This document shows, piece by piece, positions 13,382 to 28,487 of a stretch of DNA of 64,000 bases. The notes below the pieces were generated by a model. That model worked only from the letters and a program-made list of their open reading frames with translations, searched no databases and had not been told where the DNA came from. The stretch lies in NCBI GenBank assembly GCA_025210735.1, contig JAOARD010000044.1, forward strand, positions 1 through 64,000, written 5' to 3'. This stretch comes from Bacteroidales bacterium. GTDB lineage: Bacteria > Bacteroidota > Bacteroidia > Bacteroidales > UBA6680. The position numbers were made by a program, and so were the translations under genes. Numbering within the stretch: the stretch's first letter is position 1; each line of letters opens with the position of its first letter.

Positions 13382-14068
13382 ATGCTTTTTCAAATAACAG
13401 TTGATAGTTTAGAGACTATGCAGAATTCAGGAGCGGGAGAAATATCACTAAAGTGGTGGGAGATGGCTCTGAAAGGTGGTTGGATTATGTTGCCGATTCT
13501 GGCACTTTCTGTAGTTGCCATATTTATTTTTATTGATAGATATATGGCTATTATTAAAGCTCAGAAAGTAGATCAGAATTTTATGCATAGAATAAAGGAG
13601 TATATACATGAAGGTAGAATAGATTCTGCTTTATCATTGTGTAGATCTACAGATAATCCGGTTTCAAAGATGATTGAGAAGGGGATAATGAGAATAGGAC
13701 ACCCGATAAATGATGTAACTACTGCTATTGAGAATGTAGGTAAACTTGAGGTTTATAAACTTGAGAAGAATCTTCCTACACTAGCAACAGTATCAGGAGC
13801 TGCTCCTATGATTGGTTTCCTTGGAACTGTAATTGGTATGATTAAAGCATTCTATGATATGTCGCAGGTTGCAGGTGGAAATGTTAATATTCAGTTGCTT
13901 TCTGATGGTATTTATACAGCTATGGTAACAACGGTAGCAGGACTTATGGTTGGTATTGTTGCATATTTGGCATACAATATGCTTACAGCTAAGGTAGAGA
14001 AGATAGTGTTTAAGCTTGAGGCTACAACTACTGAGTTTATGGATCTGCTTAACGAACCTGTTAAATAG
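13382..14068 (+). CDS. exbB: MotA/TolQ/ExbB proton channel protein
   Basis: The 228-residue protein has three hydrophobic segments (about 32-55, 130-155 and 175-198) with the conserved APMIGFLGTVIGMIKAF and YTAMVTTVAGLMVGIVAY regions of ExbB/TolQ. With ExbD it forms the proton-driven motor of the inner membrane that energises TonB. It starts a three-gene operon: exbD begins 6 bp after its stop and the tonB-like gene 11 bp after exbD. TolQ is an alternative name, but no tolB or pal is nearby, so an ExbB-type role is preferred. Confidence 0.93.
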   Translation: MLFQITVDSLETMQNSGAGEISLKWWEMALKGGWIMLPILALSVVAIFIFIDRYMAIIKAQKVDQNFMHRIKEYIHEGRIDSALSLCRSTDNPVSKMIEKGIMRIGHPINDVTTAIENVGKLEVYKLEKNLPTLATVSGAAPMIGFLGTVIGMIKAFYDMSQVAGGNVNIQLLSDGIYTAMVTTVAGLMVGIVAYLAYNMLTAKVEKIVFKLEATTTEFMDLLNEPVK

Positions 14069-14074
14069 AGTATT

Positions 14075-14473
14075 ATGGCTATTAAACCAAAAAATAAAGT
14101 AAGTACACAGTTTAGTATGTCTGGTATGACAGACATTGTTTTTCTGTTGTTGATCTTCTTTATGGTTACATCAACCATGATAAATCCGAATGCGCTGAAG
14201 TTATTATTACCTCAGAGTGATAATCAGGTTTCTGGTAAGCGATCAACCACAGTGTCTATAACAAAAGATTTACGTTTTTATGTAGAGGACAGAGAGGTTA
14301 ATATTGCTGATCTTGAGATAAACTTGCAGGATAAGCTTATGAACTCTAAAGAGCCGGTTGTTTCATTACACGTTGATAAAAGTGTGCCAATGGAGCAGGT
14401 TGTTAGAGTAATGAATATAGCCAAGAACAATAAGTATAAGCTTGTATTAGCTACTTCTCCGGGACGTAAATAG
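14075..14473 (+). CDS. exbD: ExbD/TolR biopolymer transport protein
   Basis: The 132-residue protein has a short cytoplasmic N-terminus, one membrane helix (about 18-36) with the proton-carrying Asp20 in MTDIVFLLLIFFMV, and a periplasmic domain ending in A...PGRK. These are the standard features of ExbD/TolR. It lies between exbB and tonB and is probably translated as part of one message. Confidence 0.93.
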   Translation: MAIKPKNKVSTQFSMSGMTDIVFLLLIFFMVTSTMINPNALKLLLPQSDNQVSGKRSTTVSITKDLRFYVEDREVNIADLEINLQDKLMNSKEPVVSLHVDKSVPMEQVVRVMNIAKNNKYKLVLATSPGRK

Positions 14474-14484
14474 GAGACAGACTT

Positions 14485-15312
14485 ATGATTGAATTTATTA
14501 AGAGACATAAAGAGGGTATAATTGCAACAATCCTTTTTCACCTGATTGTTTTTCTTATAATGATCTCTTTTGGTTTATCAATACCGCTTCCGCTACCTGC
14601 AGAGGAGGGTATAATGATTGATTTTGGCGATGCAAGCAATGGTGCAGGAGTAAGTGTTGAACGCAAAGTTCAGGTACCAAAAGCTGTTAAGCAGCCAAAA
14701 GTAGAAGAACCACAAGAGAAGATTGAAGAGACCAATATGACTCAGGATTTTGAAGATGCTCCGGTTATAGAGAAGAAGAAAGAGCAAAAGAAGGAGAAGA
14801 AGAAACCTGTTGAGAAACCTAAAAAGAAGCCAGATCCAAAACCAGACCCAAAGCCCGATCCGGAACCTGTTAAAGAGGAGCCAAAGGTTAATACCAATGC
14901 GCTGTTCCCTGGAAAGAAAGATAATAATAGCACAGCTAAAAGTGTTGATGAGGGAAAGACATATAAAGGAGGAAATCAAGGGGTAAAAAGTGGTGAAGTA
15001 GGAGTTGGTCAGTATGACGGTAAAAAGAGTGGTGGTAATGGTGTTGACTTTGATCTGGAAGGTAGAAGTTATGTAAATCTTACTAAGCCATCGTATAAAA
15101 CCGATGATTATGGTACTGTTGTAGTTGAGATAATGGTTAACAGAGAAGGCGTTGTAACAGAGGCTCGTCCTGGTGTGAGAGGAACAACTGTTAACTCTGT
15201 AGTACTGTTTAATGCTGCTAAGAAAGCTGCTCTGAAATCGAGGTTTAACAGAAAACCCGGAGCTCCGGCATTTCAGAAAGGTACAATAACCTATGTGTTT
15301 AAGGTACAGTAA
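14485..15312 (+). CDS. tonB: TonB-family energy transducer
   Basis: The 275-residue protein has an N-terminal helix anchor (about 12-32) after IKRHKEG, a charged and proline-rich periplasm-spanning stretch (about 60-135, with KPDPKPDPKPDPEP repeats) and a C-terminal TonB fold (about 195-275, YGTVVVEIMVNREGVV ... FKVQ). It carries energy from the ExbBD motor to outer-membrane TonB-dependent receptors. No receptor gene is adjacent. A terminator follows 22 bp later. Confidence 0.92.
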   Translation: MIEFIKRHKEGIIATILFHLIVFLIMISFGLSIPLPLPAEEGIMIDFGDASNGAGVSVERKVQVPKAVKQPKVEEPQEKIEETNMTQDFEDAPVIEKKKEQKKEKKKPVEKPKKKPDPKPDPKPDPEPVKEEPKVNTNALFPGKKDNNSTAKSVDEGKTYKGGNQGVKSGEVGVGQYDGKKSGGNGVDFDLEGRSYVNLTKPSYKTDDYGTVVVEIMVNREGVVTEARPGVRGTTVNSVVLFNAAKKAALKSRFNRKPGAPAFQKGTITYVFKVQ

Positions 15313-15334: not shown

Positions 15335-15367
15335 AAGAGGTTAGCTTGAAGCTGACCTCTTTTTTTG
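15335..15367 (+). terminator. Terminator after tonB, overlapping the end of the opposite kinase gene
   Basis: AAGAGGTTAGC pairs with GCTGACCTCTT around TTGAA, followed by seven Ts. The stop codon of the minus-strand kinase (15341-15343) lies inside the stem, so the hairpin probably separates both convergent genes. Confidence 0.88.
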
Positions 15368-18079
15368 TGGTATTGTAAAGTAGAATGTTGTTCCTGTACC
15401 AACCTTACTCTCAACCCATATCTTACCACCATGTTTCTGAATAAATTCCTGACACAGTATAAGTCCTAAACCAGTACCTTTTTCGTTATTTGTACCTTTG
15501 GTAGAGTAACTTTCATCTATCCTGAACAACTTATCAATATTCTCCTCTGGTATTCCAATACCAGTATCAGCAATCGACATCTGAATATTACCGTTGTATA
15601 TCTCCTTGGCATTTATTGTAATCAGACCTTCCGGTTTAGAGAATTTAATGGCATTTGATACCAGATTCCGTATAATTGTATTTATCATGTTGGCATCAGC
15701 TGTCATAACAAGATCTTTAGCTATATCTGTTTTTAATTTCAGATTCTTATCTTTTACCATAGCTTGCAGACCTTTTTTTATGTCTTTAGCCATATCAGAA
15801 ATATTGAATGTAGTAGGAGCAAACTCAATCTCGCCTGTTTGTGTTTTAGACCATTCAAGGAGATTACTAAGCAGTTGTAATCCATGTTTCGAGGAGTCGC
15901 CCATAATCTTTGCAAACGATGCCGATTTAGAGTAATCGCCATGACTGATATACTTAATAAGCAGTTCGCTGAAACCAATAAGTGTATTAAACGGATTCTT
16001 TAGGTCGTGTGCAATAATAGAGAAGAACTTATCTTTTGTATTATTTATTACCTGTAGCTCTTTTTCACTATCCTTTAATATATTTTCTGTATTAACCCTC
16101 TCTGTAATATCATTTAGTGCATTAATTCTACCCTGTAATTCGCCTGAGGAGTTATAGAACGGAGCTTTATATTGCATAAATATTCGCTCATTACCATTGC
16201 TTATATATTTGGTCTCGTAACTTATTGTTGAGTCTATATTAACAGAGTTTGAACCATTTGTAATATCAGGGAAAAATCTTGTCACTTTCTTTCCCATAAC
16301 TTCATGTTTATTCTTTGATACCAGTGTGGTAAAGGCTTTATTACAGCCAATTAATATACCTTGATTATCCTCATGGAAGATAGGTATAGGAATACTCTCA
16401 AGAAGAGTGTTGAGGAATATTTTTGTCTCTTCAATTTTTCGTTCAGCATTATTTAATTCGGTTACATCATGCCCAACCCATATAATTGTATCATCAGATA
16501 TCTTAAACCCTCTCCACAGATGATACACTTCTCGGTTATCATTAAAAACAATCTTTTTTACTTCTATATTTTCGCTAATATCAAATAGAATTTCAGCCGA
16601 TTGTTCTGAAATAACTTTTTTCAGGATATTATTAATTGTGGTCTCTTTATTAAGAACATCTTCTTTCTTTAAGCCTAATCCTGTTTCGCAATGTATATTC
16701 CACGATTTTATGATTCTGTTGTTATCTGTGCTCAGAATCATAATAGGTGCATTATCAATTATGGTGTTAAACTTCTTTTCACTTATAGCAAGTGATTCAA
16801 CATTCTTCATATGTTCAGCAAACAGATAATCAATAGATTCAGATAGTTTCTTTACTTCAGCAATTGTATATCTGTTATTTTTCTCTTCGTCTTTTGATCT
16901 GTTAAGGGAATTAAACAGGTTATTATTGAGTATTCTGAAATTGTTCTGTATCTGTACATTAATTTTCTTTAACGATCGCATTGTAAACATTACTCCAATG
17001 CTTATAGATATCAATATTATAACCAGTTTATATATTATATTTAAACTACCACGCGATCGTTTACTGCGCTCTATAGCCTTCAGGTTTGTTCCGTCGTCCC
17101 ATGCACCAATTATCCAGTCCCACTTCTTAAAAGCCTTTACATACGACATTATCTTTACATCCTTTGCCTCTGGGGTAAATTTCCAGAAATACTCCATAAA
17201 TCCGCCATCCTCTTTAGCAGCAGCCTCTTTTTCAAGCTCAAAAATATTTGTTCCTTCAATATCGGTAAGGTTATTTATGTAGTCTCCTTTTTTATATACT
17301 GGTGAGTGAATCAGTAATGCTTTACCACTAAAATGATTAATAAACAGGTTGTATTTTCCTGACGACGACATTGTCTCAACCCACTCAATTGCTTTATCCT
17401 TAATATCCTCTTCAAACTCATGACGGTATTCACCAATACCAATGTACCAATTGTAGGTATCAAATCTTTTAAGAAAAGCTGTTTTAGGATACGATCTGTT
17501 CAAAGGATCTCCGGCTTTAGACCATGAATACTCAATAAAAGCTTCGTCACCTGCTTTCATCAACTCTATCTCTTCTCTTATAACATACTTTCCTGTATTA
17601 TCCTGTAAGTCTATAATATTTTTATCTTCAAAGTCAGGAGTAATAGGATGCATTATTGAATAACCATTCATATCAATTACAAACAGATATCCTCTGCCAT
17701 TGAAATATCTAAGTGGTCTTAACGACTCTTTTATAAGTGATTTTACCTGATTCTCAGTTAATTTATCCTTGTTCTTTTCGTATATATTATTAGCCATACT
17801 CCAGGCATTGTACAAGTTTCTTTTCAGAGCTACACGCATCTGTGCCTCAGTAGTATTGCTTAAATGATTAATATATGCTATGGTATTGTTAACCTCTGTT
17901 TTAATAATCTCCTTTTTGTTCTCAATATGAAGTTTTTTCTCAAATGAGAGGTCGTTTCGGTATCTGATATACTCAGAAATTACAATTGTAACACATACGC
18001 ATACAACTGCATAAATTGCTGATTTAAAATAGAATTTATTGTATATTGACGATATAGCTTTTCTTTTAAATTTTGCCAT
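15341..18079 (-). CDS. Cache-PAS-PAS sensor histidine kinase
   Basis: The 912-residue protein has a membrane helix (about 17-38), a large extracytoplasmic sensor with two similar Cache-type units (LRPLRYFNGRGYLFVID at about 115 and the W.WIIGAWDDGTN unit ending near 320), a second helix (about 335-358), two PAS domains (about 425-540 and 550-665), a dimerisation/phosphoacceptor helix with His691 in SIIAHDLKNPF, and a HATPase domain with N box NLVSNAIKFS, DTGIGI and GTGLGL. It should autophosphorylate on sensing a small ligand. No response regulator is encoded beside it. It starts 1 bp after the stop of its paralogue, so the two are co-translated and may form heterodimers. Confidence 0.92.
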   Translation of the reverse strand: MAKFKRKAISSIYNKFYFKSAIYAVVCVCVTIVISEYIRYRNDLSFEKKLHIENKKEIIKTEVNNTIAYINHLSNTTEAQMRVALKRNLYNAWSMANNIYEKNKDKLTENQVKSLIKESLRPLRYFNGRGYLFVIDMNGYSIMHPITPDFEDKNIIDLQDNTGKYVIREEIELMKAGDEAFIEYSWSKAGDPLNRSYPKTAFLKRFDTYNWYIGIGEYRHEFEEDIKDKAIEWVETMSSSGKYNLFINHFSGKALLIHSPVYKKGDYINNLTDIEGTNIFELEKEAAAKEDGGFMEYFWKFTPEAKDVKIMSYVKAFKKWDWIIGAWDDGTNLKAIERSKRSRGSLNIIYKLVIILISISIGVMFTMRSLKKINVQIQNNFRILNNNLFNSLNRSKDEEKNNRYTIAEVKKLSESIDYLFAEHMKNVESLAISEKKFNTIIDNAPIMILSTDNNRIIKSWNIHCETGLGLKKEDVLNKETTINNILKKVISEQSAEILFDISENIEVKKIVFNDNREVYHLWRGFKISDDTIIWVGHDVTELNNAERKIEETKIFLNTLLESIPIPIFHEDNQGILIGCNKAFTTLVSKNKHEVMGKKVTRFFPDITNGSNSVNIDSTISYETKYISNGNERIFMQYKAPFYNSSGELQGRINALNDITERVNTENILKDSEKELQVINNTKDKFFSIIAHDLKNPFNTLIGFSELLIKYISHGDYSKSASFAKIMGDSSKHGLQLLSNLLEWSKTQTGEIEFAPTTFNISDMAKDIKKGLQAMVKDKNLKLKTDIAKDLVMTADANMINTIIRNLVSNAIKFSKPEGLITINAKEIYNGNIQMSIADTGIGIPEENIDKLFRIDESYSTKGTNNEKGTGLGLILCQEFIQKHGGKIWVESKVGTGTTFYFTIPQKKRSASS

Positions 18080-18080
18080 C

Positions 18081-20828
18081 TTAGTTCTGTTTGTTGTTTA
18101 GCGGAAGCTCTATAGTTACTGTAGTACCAATGTCTATAGAGCTGTCAATATCTATTCTACCATCATGTTTCTTTATAAACTCATGACATATAATTAAACC
18201 AAGACCCGTACCAATTTCACCATCAGTTCCGGGTGTTGAGAATGACTCTTCCAGTTTGAATATTTTGGCAATATTTCTCTTCTCAATACCTACTCCCTCG
18301 TCGGCAATACTTATATACGATTTGCTTGAGTTATTCTCAAGATTAATAGATATGCTTTTTCCTGATGGAGTATACTTAACAGCATTAGATATAAGGTTTA
18401 TCATAACTGTACTAAGCATATTTGTATCGGCAAAAACAGGATCGTCATCGTGTGTATTATCGTTTATAGTTAAGTTCTTGTTTGATATTATATTTCCTAA
18501 TAGTGAAATAGCATTTGATATAGGCTCTTTTATTGGTATTATTTTAGGATCGTAACTTATTGTTCCTGTTTGTGATCTGGACCACTCAAGCAGGTTACTT
18601 AATAACTGAAAACCTTGTCTTGATGATGTATACATTTTGGTTGCTATACTGTCTACATCACCAATCTTATTTCTGTTTATGTTATCGATAATTCTATCAG
18701 ATGATTCTATTAAAGTATTAAATGGCACCTTAAGATCTTTGGCTATTATTGAGAAAAACTTGTCTTTGGTTTTATTTATATCTGCAAGCAGGATATTATT
18801 CTCTTTAATCATCTTTTCATACCTTTTTCTGCGGGTAATATCCAACATTGTACCAATTAACCCAACAGTCTTGCCTTCTCTGTTCTTGAATATAGATTTA
18901 TAAAAAGTAAAGTGTTTTGCATCGCTGTAATCTTTACCATATAACTCTCCGTCGTATATCTGTATGCCACCTTTATTAAACAGCTCCTTATCTTTTTCCT
19001 GAAACTTTAATGCCAGATCATAATCATAACAGTCAAAAAGGCTTAGGCCTTTTACCTGTTCTGGTGTTCTGTTTAAAAGGTCAGAAAAGGCTTTATTACA
19101 TCCCTGATACACACAGTTTAAATCTTTATAAAATAGAGGTGTAGGAATATTTTGTATAAGCGAATTAAGGAAATTAGTGTCCTCAACAAGTTTCTTTTTG
19201 GCATTCACCAGTGGTGTTACATCGTATCCCATCCATATAATAAGATTTGATGTAGCTTTAAATGAAGCCCAATACTGATGTTTTATAACGCCCCCTTTAA
19301 GTGTAAATTCAAACTGTTTAAACTCCCGGTTCTCTGTAAATATTGCATTCTCTATATTCTTGGCAATATCGTTTTCAAAAATCTGTTCAAATATCGATAC
19401 AGAACCTATTGCATCTTCCTGTTTAACTCCAAGTATCTTTTCGCTATCCTTGTTCCAGATTAATGTTTTTTTGTTTTTGTCAAAACCAATTATCATTAAC
19501 GGAGCATTATCAATAAGCAGTTTAAGTTTATGTTCACTTACCTCAAGTTCAGATATATTTTTCAGATGTTCATAAAGCAGCTTGTTTGAGTAATGTGCAA
19601 GGTCATATATTTCTGTTATATAGTATTTTGCACAACATATTGTTTTTTTCTCTCTTATTGACTCTGATAAGGAAGCAGAGAAAAGGTTAAGATTTGATAT
19701 TATTTTATCGTTTATTCTTTTTATGAAATAGTAGAATATGATAAACATTACAATTACAATCAGAGTAATTATAATAGCCTTATTGATTGCACTTCTACTT
19801 ATTCGCTCTCTTTTAGCTTCAATATATTTTTCTAGAACTCTACTGTCAGCAGAGGTTCCTATCATCCAGCCCCACTCATCGTACCCCTTAATATATGCCA
19901 GTCGCGGAGTATAACTATCATCCTTTGATGATTTCCAATAGTAATTTAAAAATCCTCCATCAGGTCTCTTTGTAAGCTTTAGCTCCTCCTCAAAAATGTT
20001 GAAACCCGTAGAGTCGGCAAGATGATTAATATAATCGCCTCTTTTTAAAGTTTTAGAACTTGTAATAAGTATTTTTCCATCGTACTGGTTTATAAAGAAA
20101 TTGATCTTTTCTGATTTATACATATTGTTAAACCAGGTAAGAGCTTTTTCCTTAATGTATTCTTTGTAATCGTCTCTATATTCACCAACAGCAAGCATCC
20201 AGTTATATGGTTCAAAGAGCTTTGCATAAACAATTTTTCTGAATCGGTGAATCTTTGTTCCGGGTTTCTTAAACCAGTTATACTCAAAAACAAACTCTTT
20301 CTCCTCTTTTAATCTGTCAAGATATCTTTTTGTTTTTTCATAATTAACAGCAGGAATACTCTTTATATCTTTAATCTTTTCGAAATGAGGATTCATAGGA
20401 TTCAGAATATACTCCTCATCCATAGATATAATAAAAACGTAACCCGAGGTATCAAAAAATCTTAAAGGTCTCAATGCCTCTACAATAATCTCCTTTATCT
20501 CATTATCGGGCAATTTCCCCTTATTACTCTCGTAAATCTGATTAGCTATTCTGTGTGCGTTATAAACAGAGTTTTTTAACTCATCTTCAAGAATAATGTC
20601 TGTTGATTTATTCAGATACTCAATATAGGCAATAGATTTCTCTACCTGATTTTTTAGAAATGCTTTCCTGTTGTAATCGTAAAGTTCTTTCTCTGTACTC
20701 TCTTCTATTTTATAACTAATAACCTCAGATATAGAAATACTAACAAGCAGAGCAACAATTACAAGGAGGGTTATTCTTGTATAGAACCTTTTAAATATAT
20801 CAGATATGTTAAACAACTCCTTTTTCAT
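18081..20828 (-). CDS. Cache-PAS-PAS sensor kinase paralogue lacking the phospho-accepting His
   Basis: The 915-residue protein has the same domain order as its downstream neighbour: helix (about 14-36), two Cache-type units (LRPLRFFDTSGYVFIIS and YDEWGWMIGTSADS), helix (about 350-370), PAS domains (about 430-545 and 550-680) and a HATPase domain. The ATP site looks intact (NLISNAVKYT, DEGVGI, GTGLGL). The H box reads SIIAKDLKVPF: the codon at 18738-18740 is AAA, giving Lys697 where His691 stands in the paralogue. Histidine autophosphorylation is therefore not possible at the usual site. It may regulate or phosphorylate the partner kinase in a heterodimer; that is inference. Confidence 0.9.
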   Translation of the reverse strand: MKKELFNISDIFKRFYTRITLLVIVALLVSISISEVISYKIEESTEKELYDYNRKAFLKNQVEKSIAYIEYLNKSTDIILEDELKNSVYNAHRIANQIYESNKGKLPDNEIKEIIVEALRPLRFFDTSGYVFIISMDEEYILNPMNPHFEKIKDIKSIPAVNYEKTKRYLDRLKEEKEFVFEYNWFKKPGTKIHRFRKIVYAKLFEPYNWMLAVGEYRDDYKEYIKEKALTWFNNMYKSEKINFFINQYDGKILITSSKTLKRGDYINHLADSTGFNIFEEELKLTKRPDGGFLNYYWKSSKDDSYTPRLAYIKGYDEWGWMIGTSADSRVLEKYIEAKRERISRSAINKAIIITLIVIVMFIIFYYFIKRINDKIISNLNLFSASLSESIREKKTICCAKYYITEIYDLAHYSNKLLYEHLKNISELEVSEHKLKLLIDNAPLMIIGFDKNKKTLIWNKDSEKILGVKQEDAIGSVSIFEQIFENDIAKNIENAIFTENREFKQFEFTLKGGVIKHQYWASFKATSNLIIWMGYDVTPLVNAKKKLVEDTNFLNSLIQNIPTPLFYKDLNCVYQGCNKAFSDLLNRTPEQVKGLSLFDCYDYDLALKFQEKDKELFNKGGIQIYDGELYGKDYSDAKHFTFYKSIFKNREGKTVGLIGTMLDITRRKRYEKMIKENNILLADINKTKDKFFSIIAKDLKVPFNTLIESSDRIIDNINRNKIGDVDSIATKMYTSSRQGFQLLSNLLEWSRSQTGTISYDPKIIPIKEPISNAISLLGNIISNKNLTINDNTHDDDPVFADTNMLSTVMINLISNAVKYTPSGKSISINLENNSSKSYISIADEGVGIEKRNIAKIFKLEESFSTPGTDGEIGTGLGLIICHEFIKKHDGRIDIDSSIDIGTTVTIELPLNNKQN

Positions 20829-23641: not shown

Positions 23642-24664
23642 ATGTTAGAGAAGATAGAATCTGATGAATTTCTAAAATTATCAGATACATATCCTGTACT
23701 GGACGTTAGATCGCCCGGCGAATACGTTACAGGACATATACACGGAGCTCACAGCATGCCTCTTTTCTCAAATGAGGAACGTGCAAAAGTGGGTACAATA
23801 TATAAGAAGAGCGGGAAGGATTCGGCAGTATTAAAAGGACTTGATTATGTTGGTCCTAAGATGTCGAAATTTGTAAAGTTTGCAAGAAAGGTTGCTGTTG
23901 ATAATACTGTTATGATTCACTGCTGGCGCGGAGGAATGCGAAGTGGGAGTGTAGCCTGGCTACTATCAACTGCAGGAATTAAGGTAAAACTTTTAACAGG
24001 AGGATATAAAGCCTACAGACGTTATATCAGAGCCGAGTTTGAAAAATATAATAACCTTGCCGTGCTTGGCGGAATGACAGGTAGCGGAAAAACGGATATA
24101 CTTGATTGTATTGAGTCGGCAGGAGAGAAGGTGGTGCAGTTAGAGTATATTGCATCGCACAAAGGATCTGCATTTGGTGCTATGGGGCAGAATGAGCAGC
24201 CAACAACAGAGCAGTTTGAGAACGACCTGTATGCATCTGTTTCACGATTTGATTATAACGATAAGATATGGGTTGAGGATGAGAGCAGATCTATAGGACG
24301 CATATTTATGCCCGACGTAGTATATGATAAGATCAGAAACTCTGTACTCTATTTTGTTGAGGTTAGTAAAAAAGACCGGATAGACAGATTGATGCGTGAC
24401 TATACTGAGTTTGATAATGATGTTCTGATACTGAATGTAGAGAAGATATCGAAACGATTGGGACCTCAACACGCCAAACTTGCCATAGAGTCAATAGAGA
24501 CTAAAGATTACCGAACAGCAATTGATATAGTACTATCATATTATGACAAGGCTTACATGTACGGAATGCAGAAGAGAGATACCAATAAGGTTCTGAAGAT
24601 ATGTATAGATGAAGGAATGAGTGAGAAGGAGATTGCAGAACTACTTATAAACTACAAAGAGTAA
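23642..24664 (+). CDS. mnmH: tRNA 2-selenouridine synthase
   Basis: The 340-residue enzyme (also called SelU/YbbB) replaces sulfur by selenium in mnm5s2U at position 34 of Glu, Gln and Lys tRNAs, using selenophosphate. It has an N-terminal rhodanese domain (about 5-130, DVRSPGEYVTGHI, active Cys94 in MIHCWRGGMRSGS) and a C-terminal P-loop domain (GGMTGSGKTD, 143-152) for the geranyl-transfer step. The desulfurase-SelD fusion that should supply selenophosphate begins 17 bp downstream, forming a complete two-gene module. Confidence 0.95.
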   Translation: MLEKIESDEFLKLSDTYPVLDVRSPGEYVTGHIHGAHSMPLFSNEERAKVGTIYKKSGKDSAVLKGLDYVGPKMSKFVKFARKVAVDNTVMIHCWRGGMRSGSVAWLLSTAGIKVKLLTGGYKAYRRYIRAEFEKYNNLAVLGGMTGSGKTDILDCIESAGEKVVQLEYIASHKGSAFGAMGQNEQPTTEQFENDLYASVSRFDYNDKIWVEDESRSIGRIFMPDVVYDKIRNSVLYFVEVSKKDRIDRLMRDYTEFDNDVLILNVEKISKRLGPQHAKLAIESIETKDYRTAIDIVLSYYDKAYMYGMQKRDTNKVLKICIDEGMSEKEIAELLINYKE

Positions 24665-24681
24665 CCGATAAACCAATTACA

Positions 24682-26886
24682 ATGGAACCAATATACTTAG
24701 ATTATAACGCTACAACCCCAATGTCAGAAGAGGTGGTGAATGCAATGAAACCATACCTTGATGTATACTTCGGAAACCCCTCAAGCAGCCATACATACGG
24801 AAATAAAACCAAACAGGCTGTTGAGGAGGCACGTAAACAGGTTGCCGATCTGCTTAACTGTAATCCAGATGAGATTACGTTTACAAGCGGAGGATCAGAA
24901 TCAAACAACTATGCTATAAAGGGAGTTGCTTATAATCTTAAGAGCAGAGGAAACCATATAATAACAAGTGCTATTGAGCACCCTGCTGTTACAGAGGTTT
25001 GTGAGTTTCTTAAAACCGAAGGATTCAGAATAACATATATACCTGTAGATGAAACCGGGGTTGTAAATCCTGAAGATATAAAGGCAGCAATTGGTAACGA
25101 TACAATTCTGATATCGGTTATGCATGCCAATAACGAGACAGGAATGTTGCAGCCAATAAAAGATATTGCAGCAATAGCAAAAGAGCACAATATAATAATG
25201 CATGTTGATGCAGCACAAAGTATAGGTAAGGTTTCTGTTGATATAGAGGAGTCAGGCGTTGATCTTTTATCGGTTGCAGCACATAAATTCTACGGGCCAA
25301 AAGGTATTGGAGCTCTGTATGTAAAACGCGGAGTAAAGCTACAAAAGCTTATACACGGAGCCGATCATGAACGCAACATGAGAGCCGGAACAGAGAATGT
25401 ACTTGAGATTGTAGGTTTAGGAAAAGCAGCAGAGCAGGCTAAATCAGGTTTAGAGAAAAATGGTTTGCATATGCGTAACATGCGCGATAAACTATACAAT
25501 GCAATATCAGAAAAGTGTTCAGATATAAAGGTTAACGGAGATTTAGAGCTGTGTTTACCAAATACACTATCGTTAAGCTTTAAAGGTATTGAGGCAAATA
25601 CACTGTTGTCTGAATTAAAAGACATTGCAGCATCTGCCGGAGCAGCGTGCCATACCGATAGTATAGATGTATCTCATGTTCTTAGTGCAATGAATGTACC
25701 TGTTGAATTTGCAATGGGAACAATAAGACTATCAACCGGAAAATATACAACAGATAAAGATATTGATAGTGCGGCACAGATGATTATTGATGCCGTTGAA
25801 AGGTTAAAACCAACAAGTGATAAATTTATTGCAGACACTGCTGTTGATAATGATGAGTACAAACTAACCAGATATACACATGGTATGGGATGTGCCTGTA
25901 AAATCAGACCACAATACCTTGAGCGTATACTATCTGATATGCCTGTGAGCATTACAGATGAGAATATCCTTATTGATAAATCGAACAACGATGATGCAGC
26001 AGTATACAGGATAGGCGACAACAGAGCTATGGTACAAACCTTAGACTTTTTTACACCTATAGTTGACGATCCGTATACCTTTGGTGCAATTGCTGCCTCT
26101 AATGCATTAAGCGATGTGTATGCAATGGGAGCCAAACCTGTTTTTGCACTTAATATTGTAGGTTTCCCTGATAAGAGATTACCTGAAGCAGTACTGTCTG
26201 CTATACTAAAGGGAGCAGCCGATAAAGCATCAGAAGCAGGTATTGCTATTCTTGGCGGACATACAGTTGAGGATACAGAGCCTAAATTCGGAATGGTGGT
26301 TTCTGGTATTGTTGATGAAGATAAGGTACTATCAAATAATAAAGCTAAGGTTGGAGACAAGATAATACTAACAAAACCTTTGGGAACAGGTATTATTTCA
26401 ACAGCACTTAAAGCCGGAGCAATTACAGACACAGAGGCAAAAGAGGCTTCTGATAGTATGGCAGAGCTTAACAGATATGCTGCTGAAGAGATGCTTAAAT
26501 TTGATGTTAGTACAGCAACAGATGTTACCGGATTCGGATTAATAGGCCATCTAAAGGAGGTTGCTGAAGCTTCTGATATAAACGTAAATATATATTCAGA
26601 CAGAACTCCGCTATTTAATAATACTATGAATCTTGTAATGCAGGGACATCTGCCGGGAGGTACAAAAAATAATCTGGATTTTGTATCTGGTATTGTTGAG
26701 TGGGATAAGTCGGTATCAGAACAGATGCGATACATATTATGCGATGCTCAGACATCAGGAGGATTATTGATTTTTGTAAATGAGAAAGATTCTGATAAGT
26801 TATTAAACAACCTTAAAGGTGTTTGTCAGGTAGCAGAGATAATAGGAGAGGTTGTTGGCAAAGGAGCAACAATAAACGTACTATAA
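24682..26886 (+). CDS. selD: Fused NifS-like cysteine desulfurase / selenide,water dikinase SelD
   Basis: The 734-residue protein joins two enzymes. Residues 1-380 are a class V PLP aminotransferase of the NifS/IscS type with PLP lysine 202 (AAHKFYGPKG) and active Cys323 (SAGAACHTDS). Residues 393-734 are selenophosphate synthetase: TRYTHGMGCACKI carries Cys404 and Lys407, equivalent to Cys17 and Lys20 of E. coli SelD, followed by NDDAAVY, TLDFFTPIVDDP, GGHTVEDTEP and TDVTGFGLIGHL. The catalytic residue is Cys, not selenocysteine. The desulfurase half may take selenium from selenocysteine or deliver selenide to the SelD half. It follows selU in one operon and ends 11 bp from a convergent kinase gene. 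Confidence 0.95.
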   Translation: MEPIYLDYNATTPMSEEVVNAMKPYLDVYFGNPSSSHTYGNKTKQAVEEARKQVADLLNCNPDEITFTSGGSESNNYAIKGVAYNLKSRGNHIITSAIEHPAVTEVCEFLKTEGFRITYIPVDETGVVNPEDIKAAIGNDTILISVMHANNETGMLQPIKDIAAIAKEHNIIMHVDAAQSIGKVSVDIEESGVDLLSVAAHKFYGPKGIGALYVKRGVKLQKLIHGADHERNMRAGTENVLEIVGLGKAAEQAKSGLEKNGLHMRNMRDKLYNAISEKCSDIKVNGDLELCLPNTLSLSFKGIEANTLLSELKDIAASAGAACHTDSIDVSHVLSAMNVPVEFAMGTIRLSTGKYTTDKDIDSAAQMIIDAVERLKPTSDKFIADTAVDNDEYKLTRYTHGMGCACKIRPQYLERILSDMPVSITDENILIDKSNNDDAAVYRIGDNRAMVQTLDFFTPIVDDPYTFGAIAASNALSDVYAMGAKPVFALNIVGFPDKRLPEAVLSAILKGAADKASEAGIAILGGHTVEDTEPKFGMVVSGIVDEDKVLSNNKAKVGDKIILTKPLGTGIISTALKAGAITDTEAKEASDSMAELNRYAAEEMLKFDVSTATDVTGFGLIGHLKEVAEASDINVNIYSDRTPLFNNTMNLVMQGHLPGGTKNNLDFVSGIVEWDKSVSEQMRYILCDAQTSGGLLIFVNEKDSDKLLNNLKGVCQVAEIIGEVVGKGATINVL

Positions 26887-26897
26887 AAACATATAAA

Positions 26898-28487
26898 TTA
26901 AGATACCTTTGTGTTGTTCTCTATAGGTAAGGTGAAGAACACAGAGGTTCCTTTATCCTCTTCAGATTCAATCCATATTTCGCCACCCATAAGGTTAACC
27001 AACCCTTTACATATAGATAAGCCTAAACCTGTACCACCATATTTTCTGTGGAATGTATTCTCAAGTTGTCTGAAACGCTCAAATATTATCTTAGAGTTCT
27101 GTTCAGATATACCAATTCCGGTATCGGTAACAGAAAAAACAATATATCGTTTATCCTTTTCAAAGGCTTTTACAACAATCTCACCACTCTCTGTAAACTT
27201 CACAGAGTTATCAATAAGATTAAGGAATATCTGCTTTAAACGCAGCTTATCACAGTATATTTCATATTCAGTAATACTATTGTAATCGCAGTTAAACTTT
27301 AAACTCTTTTTCTGTTTCTTGGCAATAATATCATCAGCATCCTTTCTGACATCATTAAAGAAATCATCGGTATCTAATTTAGATATACTTAGTTGTAACT
27401 CGTTAGCCTCTATTTTAGAGAAATCTATAATATCAGATATAATACGTAGTAACTGGTCGGTACTGTTCTGTATAATAGATATGTACTGTTGCTGTTTTTC
27501 AGGGGTAATATCAGATCTGCCAAGAAGCGATACAAAACCAATTATCCCGTTCATAGGTGTTCGTATCTCATGCGACATATTTGCAAGAAAAGCCGTCTTA
27601 AGTTTGTCGCTCTCAATAGCTTTCTTTCTCGATTTATCCAGCTCCTCATTCAGAACCGATAGGGTTTTGTTACTTTTAATAAGCTCCTTATTCTTTTTCA
27701 ACAACTCAAGCTCAGTATTTATTCTGGTCTGTATATTTCTTATTACAAGCAATACAGAGAAAAACTTATTGTCCTTAACAATTGGGTTTGAGCTTATCTC
27801 TACAGGTATTGTCCGGTTATCTTTATCAATAATCTCAATCTCATATATACGTTTTGTAAAGTCACCAGACTGCCTCTCCTGCATATATTTTCTGACAATA
27901 TTTTTGTGTTTCTCGGTAATAAAATCAAACAGGTTACTGGCTTTATCTTCTGATAACTCAACAATTGCATTTGCTGCATTATTAGCATATTTAAGTTCAC
28001 CGGTTTTTGATACCAGTAGTATAATATCCTGCGATGTCTCTGCAAGAATACGATACTTCTCTTCGCTTGATTTTAGTTGCTCATAAACCTTAATCATCTC
28101 CATCTGGTTAGATCTTATCTCATCTATAAGCACTTTGTGCTCCTCATTCTGCATGGAGTATTTCTCTATGATTCTACGGTTTTTTTCGGTTTTCTGATCT
28201 ATCTCCTTTACAAGATTGGCAACCCTTCTTTTTAGTGTAATCTTCTCATTTACCTCTTTCTGAAAAAGCTTTTTCTTTCTAATTAACTTCTTGGCGATAT
28301 TTATATTTATTACAACAAGTGTAATGGTAATTATATATATAAATATATTGTAGATCTGTATACTGTTATTAGGAGTAGACGAACTACAAGATGTTTGTAA
28401 AATCAGAATAAGGGCTATAACAGCTTTGCTGATAACCGTTCTGTTAAATGCAATATAAACTTGTTTTATTATATGTTGAGTAGCCAT
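26898..28487 (-). CDS. PAS-domain sensor histidine kinase
   Basis: The 529-residue protein has two N-terminal hydrophobic segments (about 15-35 and 43-64) with almost no loop between them, a coiled coil (about 65-140), a PAS domain (about 140-255), a second coiled coil, an HisKA domain with His306 in MSHEIRTPMNGIIGF, and a HATPase domain (DTGIGI, GTGLGLSICKG). The MSHEIRTP box is typical of hybrid-type kinases, but there is no receiver domain here. No response regulator is adjacent. Its 3' end is 11 bp from the convergent selD fusion with no obvious terminator between them. Confidence 0.92.
   Translation of the reverse strand: MATQHIIKQVYIAFNRTVISKAVIALILILQTSCSSSTPNNSIQIYNIFIYIITITLVVININIAKKLIRKKKLFQKEVNEKITLKRRVANLVKEIDQKTEKNRRIIEKYSMQNEEHKVLIDEIRSNQMEMIKVYEQLKSSEEKYRILAETSQDIILLVSKTGELKYANNAANAIVELSEDKASNLFDFITEKHKNIVRKYMQERQSGDFTKRIYEIEIIDKDNRTIPVEISSNPIVKDNKFFSVLLVIRNIQTRINTELELLKKNKELIKSNKTLSVLNEELDKSRKKAIESDKLKTAFLANMSHEIRTPMNGIIGFVSLLGRSDITPEKQQQYISIIQNSTDQLLRIISDIIDFSKIEANELQLSISKLDTDDFFNDVRKDADDIIAKKQKKSLKFNCDYNSITEYEIYCDKLRLKQIFLNLIDNSVKFTESGEIVVKAFEKDKRYIVFSVTDTGIGISEQNSKIIFERFRQLENTFHRKYGGTGLGLSICKGLVNLMGGEIWIESEEDKGTSVFFTLPIENNTKVS

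Follow-up and report, generated by a model that had tools for sequence, protein, structure and literature searches.

A tandem pair of dCache-PAS-PAS histidine kinases in a Bacteroidales genus, one of which has lost the phospho-accepting histidine and is a candidate sensory partner of the other

Only a handful of natural pseudo-histidine kinases have been studied so far, and heterodimers of sensor kinases are described as rare. The best-studied pseudo-histidine kinase is DivL of Caulobacter and other alphaproteobacteria, in which a HisKA fold with PAS domains is kept, tyrosine (alanine in one species) replaces the acceptor histidine throughout the orthologues, ATP is bound weakly, and the protein acts on another kinase, CckA, as a sensor of DivK~P (PMC4211667). 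FasB and FasC of group A Streptococcus are encoded at one locus, beside the gene of their regulator FasA, and two-hybrid evidence points to hetero- but not homodimers of these kinases, which act together with a division into catalytic and acceptor roles (PMC12675982). In the RetS/GacS system of Pseudomonas one sensor kinase modulates another via heterodimerisation (PMC12189002), and RocA (with CovS) and a laboratory-evolved ChrS (with HrrS) act via another kinase, their own histidine or kinase activity being unneeded (PMC7028121, PMC9491836). The preliminary description of the locus reported here had stated that pseudo-kinase partners exist in other bacteria, and DivL, FasBC, RetS/GacS and RocA show that it was right to do so.

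The locus lies in a stretch of 64,000 nucleotides from a Bacteroidales bacterium, the whole of which was analysed and is here called the window. Two genes for sensor kinases, termed A and B, occupy its minus strand in tandem, with the following features:

15335-15361, found on the plus strand: palindromic hairpin resembling a terminator, where B and a TonB-like gene converge (consensus scan; not above shuffled expectation)
15341-18079, minus strand: gene B, intact paralogous sensor kinase, dCache_2-PAS-PAS-DHp-CA, 912 aa (ORF, Pfam, alignment)
15827-16087, minus strand: HisKA/DHp of B (Pfam)
16007-16009, minus strand: His691 codon of B, CAC, phospho-acceptor (sequence)
18080, minus strand: spacer of one base between the stop of A and the start of B, TAA-G-ATG (sequence)
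18081-20828, minus strand: gene A, pseudo-kinase homologue, dCache_2-PAS-PAS-(DHp)-HATPase_c, 915 aa (ORF, Pfam, sequence)
18096-18428, minus strand: HATPase_c (CA) of A, with N, G1, F and G2 boxes intact (Pfam, motif alignment, AlphaFold)
18558-18818, minus strand: degenerate DHp of A, residues 671-757, devoid of histidine (alignment, sequence, AlphaFold)
18738-18740, minus strand: Lys697 codon of A, AAA, at the phospho-acceptor position (sequence)
18822-19151, minus strand: second PAS of A, residues 560-669 (Pfam)
19281-19526, minus strand: first PAS of A, residues 435-516 (Pfam)
19851-20684, minus strand: periplasmic dCache_2 of A, residues 49-326 (Pfam, E=2.3e-57)

The two proteins are 37% identical along their entire length in pairwise alignment, with the DHp as the domain of highest likeness (54%), and Pfam finds dCache_2, two PAS domains and HATPase_c in both, the dCache_2 of A being bracketed by hydrophobic stretches (residues ~11-37 and 351-369 by hydropathy). 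The gap of one base and the shared architecture are thus as the preliminary description had given them, and the former is consistent with co-transcription and translational coupling of the two genes.

The H-box of A reads SIIAKDLKVPF, with Lys697 (AAA), where that of B reads SIIAHDLKNPF, with His691 (CAC), precisely as had been claimed beforehand. A second substitution stands at H+4, a position of the usual phosphatase motif, where A has valine and B asparagine; the acidic residue at H+1 is retained in A as Asp698. Pfam recognizes HisKA in B (9.4e-10), and no such match is found in A at E<=0.01. An alternative phospho-accepting histidine in the DHp of A can be set aside, as this region contains no histidine at all in any of the three A proteins compared below. 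The ATP-binding motifs, by contrast with the H-box, are as intact as the earlier description had stated: the N, G1, F and G2 boxes are complete (NLISNAVKYT, DEGVGI, KIFKLEES and GTGLGL), and they are intact in A of all three species. Judged by the hallmarks of an active class I HisKA kinase, A therefore lacks the H-box histidine and the Pfam HisKA match and has the HATPase_c boxes; B has the phospho-accepting histidine in its H-box. In the sense in which DivL is a pseudo-histidine kinase, A has lost its histidine in three of three species and appears, from its predicted structure, to keep the DHp-CA fold. The AlphaFold model of this part of A has a mean pLDDT of 74.5, most of the CA lying at 85-93 with a lower part at the ATP lid, and the DHp is a helical hairpin of low-to-moderate confidence; in comparison with PDB structures it matches HK853 and DivL (4q20) about equally (TM about 0.7).

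The pair was compared in the three available species of this Bacteroidales genus, all apparently represented by draft assemblies: that of the window, a sister species (Bacteroidales bacterium UBA6680, the only other full-length relative that a contig search returned) and a more distant one (G001). The acceptor site of the A orthologues carries lysine, lysine and arginine, respectively, and that of the B orthologues histidine in all three. The A protein of UBA6680 is 89% identical to that of the window, with the same AAA lysine codon and the same gap of one base; that of G001 is 40% identical, with arginine (CGC) and a five-base gap to an intact B. Valine at H+4 is shared by the window genome and UBA6680, and G001 has threonine there. 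The DHp of B is 98.9% identical between the window genome and its sister species. The check proposed in the preliminary description, alignment of the H-box in related genomes, thus finds histidine absent from all three A orthologues and an intact B always adjoining. A strain-specific defect is ruled out by the two further species that also lack the histidine, and an assembly error is ruled out because an independently assembled species shares the lysine and a third has arginine.

In each of the three species uvrB adjoins the tandem divergently, and the opposite flank differs in G001. Downstream of B in the window lies a convergent ExbB/TolQ-ExbD-TonB-like cluster (13382-15312, plus strand), a neighbourhood kept in UBA6680; the more distant species has quinone/NADH-type and dihydroorotate-dehydrogenase-like genes at this place. 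Elsewhere in the window a single plus-strand frame of 734 aa (24682-26886), named by eye as a NifS-like cysteine desulfurase joined to a SelD-like selenide, water dikinase, adjoins a gene similar to rhodanese-type tRNA 2-selenouridine synthases (23642-24664, also named by eye); the joined frame is likely, though only that, to be a fused pair of selenium-handling genes.

Purifying selection acts on A as it does on B: in the comparison of the window genome with UBA6680, A has a dN/dS of 0.026 and B one of 0.030, at a dS of about 2, which is saturated. These values of about 0.03, together with reading frames free of stops, rule out A as a pseudogene. The related notion of a decaying duplicate, a former kinase that lost its histidine, has no function and is on its way out, could draw on the joint disappearance of the histidine and the asparagine at H+4 and on a kinase core less conserved than that of B; we give it hardly any credence in view of the stop-free frames in three species, the low dN/dS (even at saturated dS), the intact ATP boxes and an A lineage older than the split of the genus. 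Because the loss of the histidine is kept in all three species, A is probably a working regulatory partner and not a broken gene.

The age of the lesion was approached with a tree of full-length proteins, with an outgroup of dCache kinases from other families, since a tree of the DHp and CA alone left A and B unresolved (the A clade appearing in 38% of bootstrap trees). In the full-length tree the A proteins of the three species group as one clade (100/99.7), as do their B counterparts (89/93), and the duplication and the loss of the histidine therefore probably predate the divergence of the genus; arginine and lysine could also stem from two separate losses that followed an earlier duplication. 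Among 50 other related kinases, drawn from the window genome and others, the acceptor site is histidine in 49 and asparagine in one, and valine at H+4 occurs in none. A nucleotide pattern written for the H-box of A, with lysine or an AGR-coded arginine, which misses CGN arginine (as in G001) and differently worded H-boxes, found no case besides A in 393 genomes of the order and 396 of the phylum; as a control, the histidine form of the pattern was present in 24 of 60 genomes of the order. From the loss in three species, the A clade, the nearly uniform histidine in the surveyed kinases and the pattern search, we conclude that the lesion of A is old, fixed and rare. A second kinase devoid of the acceptor histidine is found in the same genome outside the window (L030:1393-2283; C65:29236-29919): it is soluble, has 297 residues, asparagine at the acceptor position (SNIANEIVNPF) and a degenerate G1 box (NTGQCI), and a gene for a receiver domain lies shortly downstream.

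The reading we favour, at a probability of roughly 0.6, is that A is a non-phosphorylatable sensory subunit that would pair with B, a dimerisation that we infer, and tune its autokinase or phosphatase activity. On this reading a membrane histidine kinase of the dCache-PAS-PAS type would have been duplicated in tandem long ago, with labour since divided between the two products. B would be the phospho-carrying output subunit; A would sense via its own dCache and PAS domains and, while keeping a complete predicted ATP-binding domain, would be unable to accept phosphate. Translated from the transcript that also encodes B, one base ahead of it, A would use the likeness of the DHp helices to dimerise with B and would shift the autokinase or phosphatase activity of B up or down by allostery, and two periplasmic/cytoplasmic inputs would converge on one phospho-output and an unlinked response regulator. 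Heterodimerisation is plausible from the coupled genes and from the DHp being the most alike domain, a likeness that allows pairing of A with B and does not prove it; A could also form homodimers. That A is a non-phosphorylatable partner kinase is well supported, because all three A orthologues lacking the histidine adjoin an intact B.

A linked response regulator was sought for the pair and none was found: the window holds no response regulator gene, and the nearest receiver domain on the contig (C75:101065) is about 80 kb away. Sixty receiver domains exceed the Pfam cut-off genome-wide, and these are scattered. A further PAS-HisKA-HATPase sensor kinase of the window (26898-28487, minus strand), with a normal H-box NMSHEIRTPMNGI, has no linked regulator either.

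HK853 of Thermotoga maritima, which with other class I HisKA kinases is among the best sequence and fold matches to the DHp-CA core of A, is generally described as cis-acting. The spacing between the histidine position and helix alpha2 is in both A and B that of HK853, with no indel, the phospho-accepting histidine of HK853 being what A lacks. Together, the spacing and the cis action of HK853 lean against phosphorylation of B by A, without excluding it: if the HK853 geometry is shared, the ATP domain of A would face its own Lys697 and could act only allosterically, a deduction from length and not from loop handedness, the inter-helix loop of the DHp being what predicts cis or trans action (PMC5956149). 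Transfer in trans, with the ATP domain of A phosphorylating His691 of B in a heterodimer of which A would be the catalytic and B the acceptor half, can be argued from the ATP-binding boxes kept in A of all three species, unlike the weakly ATP-binding DivL (PMC4211667), and has a precedent in FasBC, a tandem pair with split roles in which FasB is proposed to act on FasC (PMC12675982). We consider it unlikely on three counts: B has a complete CA of its own and no need of A, the HK853-like distance would under cis action direct the CA of A to its own lysine, and the CA is less conserved in A than in B (42% versus 52%, p=0.09). The preliminary description had cast A as a partner that acts only in a heterodimer, phosphorylating B or tuning it; the non-phosphorylatable partner stands and the tuning fits, whereas the phosphorylating role is the part against which the spacing leans.

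A bolder proposal, rather doubtful and advanced here tentatively, is that the receptor is an obligate heterodimer of A and B with a basic residue (lysine or arginine) fixed at the acceptor site of A, in which the intact CA of A would serve as a trans-kinase for B or as an ATP-gated switch, and the basic side chain would itself be under selection, for example by holding the CA of the partner or the gamma-phosphate of ATP in a set state. If true, this would make the pair a one-sided histidine kinase, conserved and equipped with a dCache-PAS-PAS sensor.

Two independent comparisons bear on the roles of the two proteins. Residues A268, A271, T275, V294 and D297 of HK853 are the positions swapped to rewire its choice of regulator. 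These five specificity positions (named in the title of PDB 4jas) were transferred to the pair; they read TGLID, TGLID and TGLIE in B of the three species, and TERKT, TEKQT and TKLIS in A, with charged residues at H+11 and H+15 that are nearly absent from the other surveyed kinases. As these residues have drifted in A and are nearly invariant in B, the regulator-docking face of A is, on this transfer from HK853, apparently free of the constraint that holds in B. When the window genome is compared with G001, the kinase core of A has a lower identity than that of B (45% versus 56%), whereas the first PAS of A has a higher one (48% versus 28%), a contrast with an interaction p of 0.0009 when columns are treated as independent. 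The docking drift and the contrast between core and first PAS point to a division of roles in which A serves for input and B for output.

The same positions weigh on two further alternatives. One would make A a sensor of the DivL kind, the DHp of an A homodimer binding a (phosphorylated) response regulator and reading its state while passing on no phosphate. DivL, which binds DivK~P, shares the type of lesion, with tyrosine for histidine, PAS domains and a histidine kinase fold, and by TM-score the model of A fits DivL 4q20 and HK853 about equally; such a function would predict the docking face to be the conserved part of A, whereas its positions vary among orthologues and bear charges mostly absent in the family, those of B being kept, and we hold it to be improbable. 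The other would make A a phosphatase-only partner, devoid of kinase output and dephosphorylating the response regulator of B. HisKA kinases mutated at the histidine can in general still act as phosphatases, Asp698 is kept at H+1, and the A protein of G001, having threonine at H+4, might conceivably be a phosphatase; against this, A of the window genome and its sister species has at H+4 a valine seen in none of the 50 other kinases, and the docking positions have drifted, which in our estimate makes a phosphatase-only role highly improbable.

The pair is a compact natural case in which two kinases of shared architecture, apparently made from one transcript, differ genus-wide by the swap of one catalytic residue, and in which selection is visibly divided between input (A) and output (B). 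How asymmetric receptors arise from duplicated receptor kinases can be tested cleanly on it, as can the question whether the cis or trans direction of autophosphorylation restricts the effects open to a dead partner. An automated annotation would probably label A an ordinary histidine kinase.

Set beside the known systems, A resembles DivL in its HisKA fold, its PAS domains and an acceptor histidine replaced throughout the orthologues, and the role proposed for it, by analogy, would likewise be the regulation of another kinase. DivL has tyrosine, binds ATP weakly and senses DivK~P, whereas A has lysine or arginine and intact predicted ATP boxes; unlike DivL, A also has a dCache sensor, an intact paralogue one base away and a drifted docking face, so that the conserved docking surface of a DivL orthologue is, at the positions transferred from HK853, missing from A. 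Like FasB and FasC, A and B are two kinases encoded at one locus, although the Fas pair has its regulator gene alongside and A/B has none nearby. The situation of A is reversed in FasC, the proposed pseudokinase, which keeps its histidine and can dispense with its kinase domain (PMC12675982); and where a pair of the FasBC type would have adjacent genes with complementary lesions, A and B are adjacent and paralogous with a lesion only in A, B appearing complete. The modulation through heterodimerisation described for RetS and GacS is what we propose, again by analogy, for A and B, but the hybrid kinase RetS and the unorthodox kinase GacS have receiver domains, which A and B lack. RocA has degenerate CA features and keeps the DHp histidine, whereas A has intact CA boxes and a DHp without histidine; the ChrS variant owes its state to a frameshift in the CA that arose under laboratory selection, and A is a natural loss of the histidine. 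A literature search on lysine in place of the acceptor histidine returned nothing relevant, and no report was found, in a search with most subscription papers beyond its range, of a lysine or arginine site combined with full ATP boxes, a dCache-PAS-PAS sensor and an adjacent paralogue of the same architecture. The A/B pair would add to the known pseudo-kinase partners, alongside DivL, FasBC, RetS/GacS and RocA, and is not a new category.
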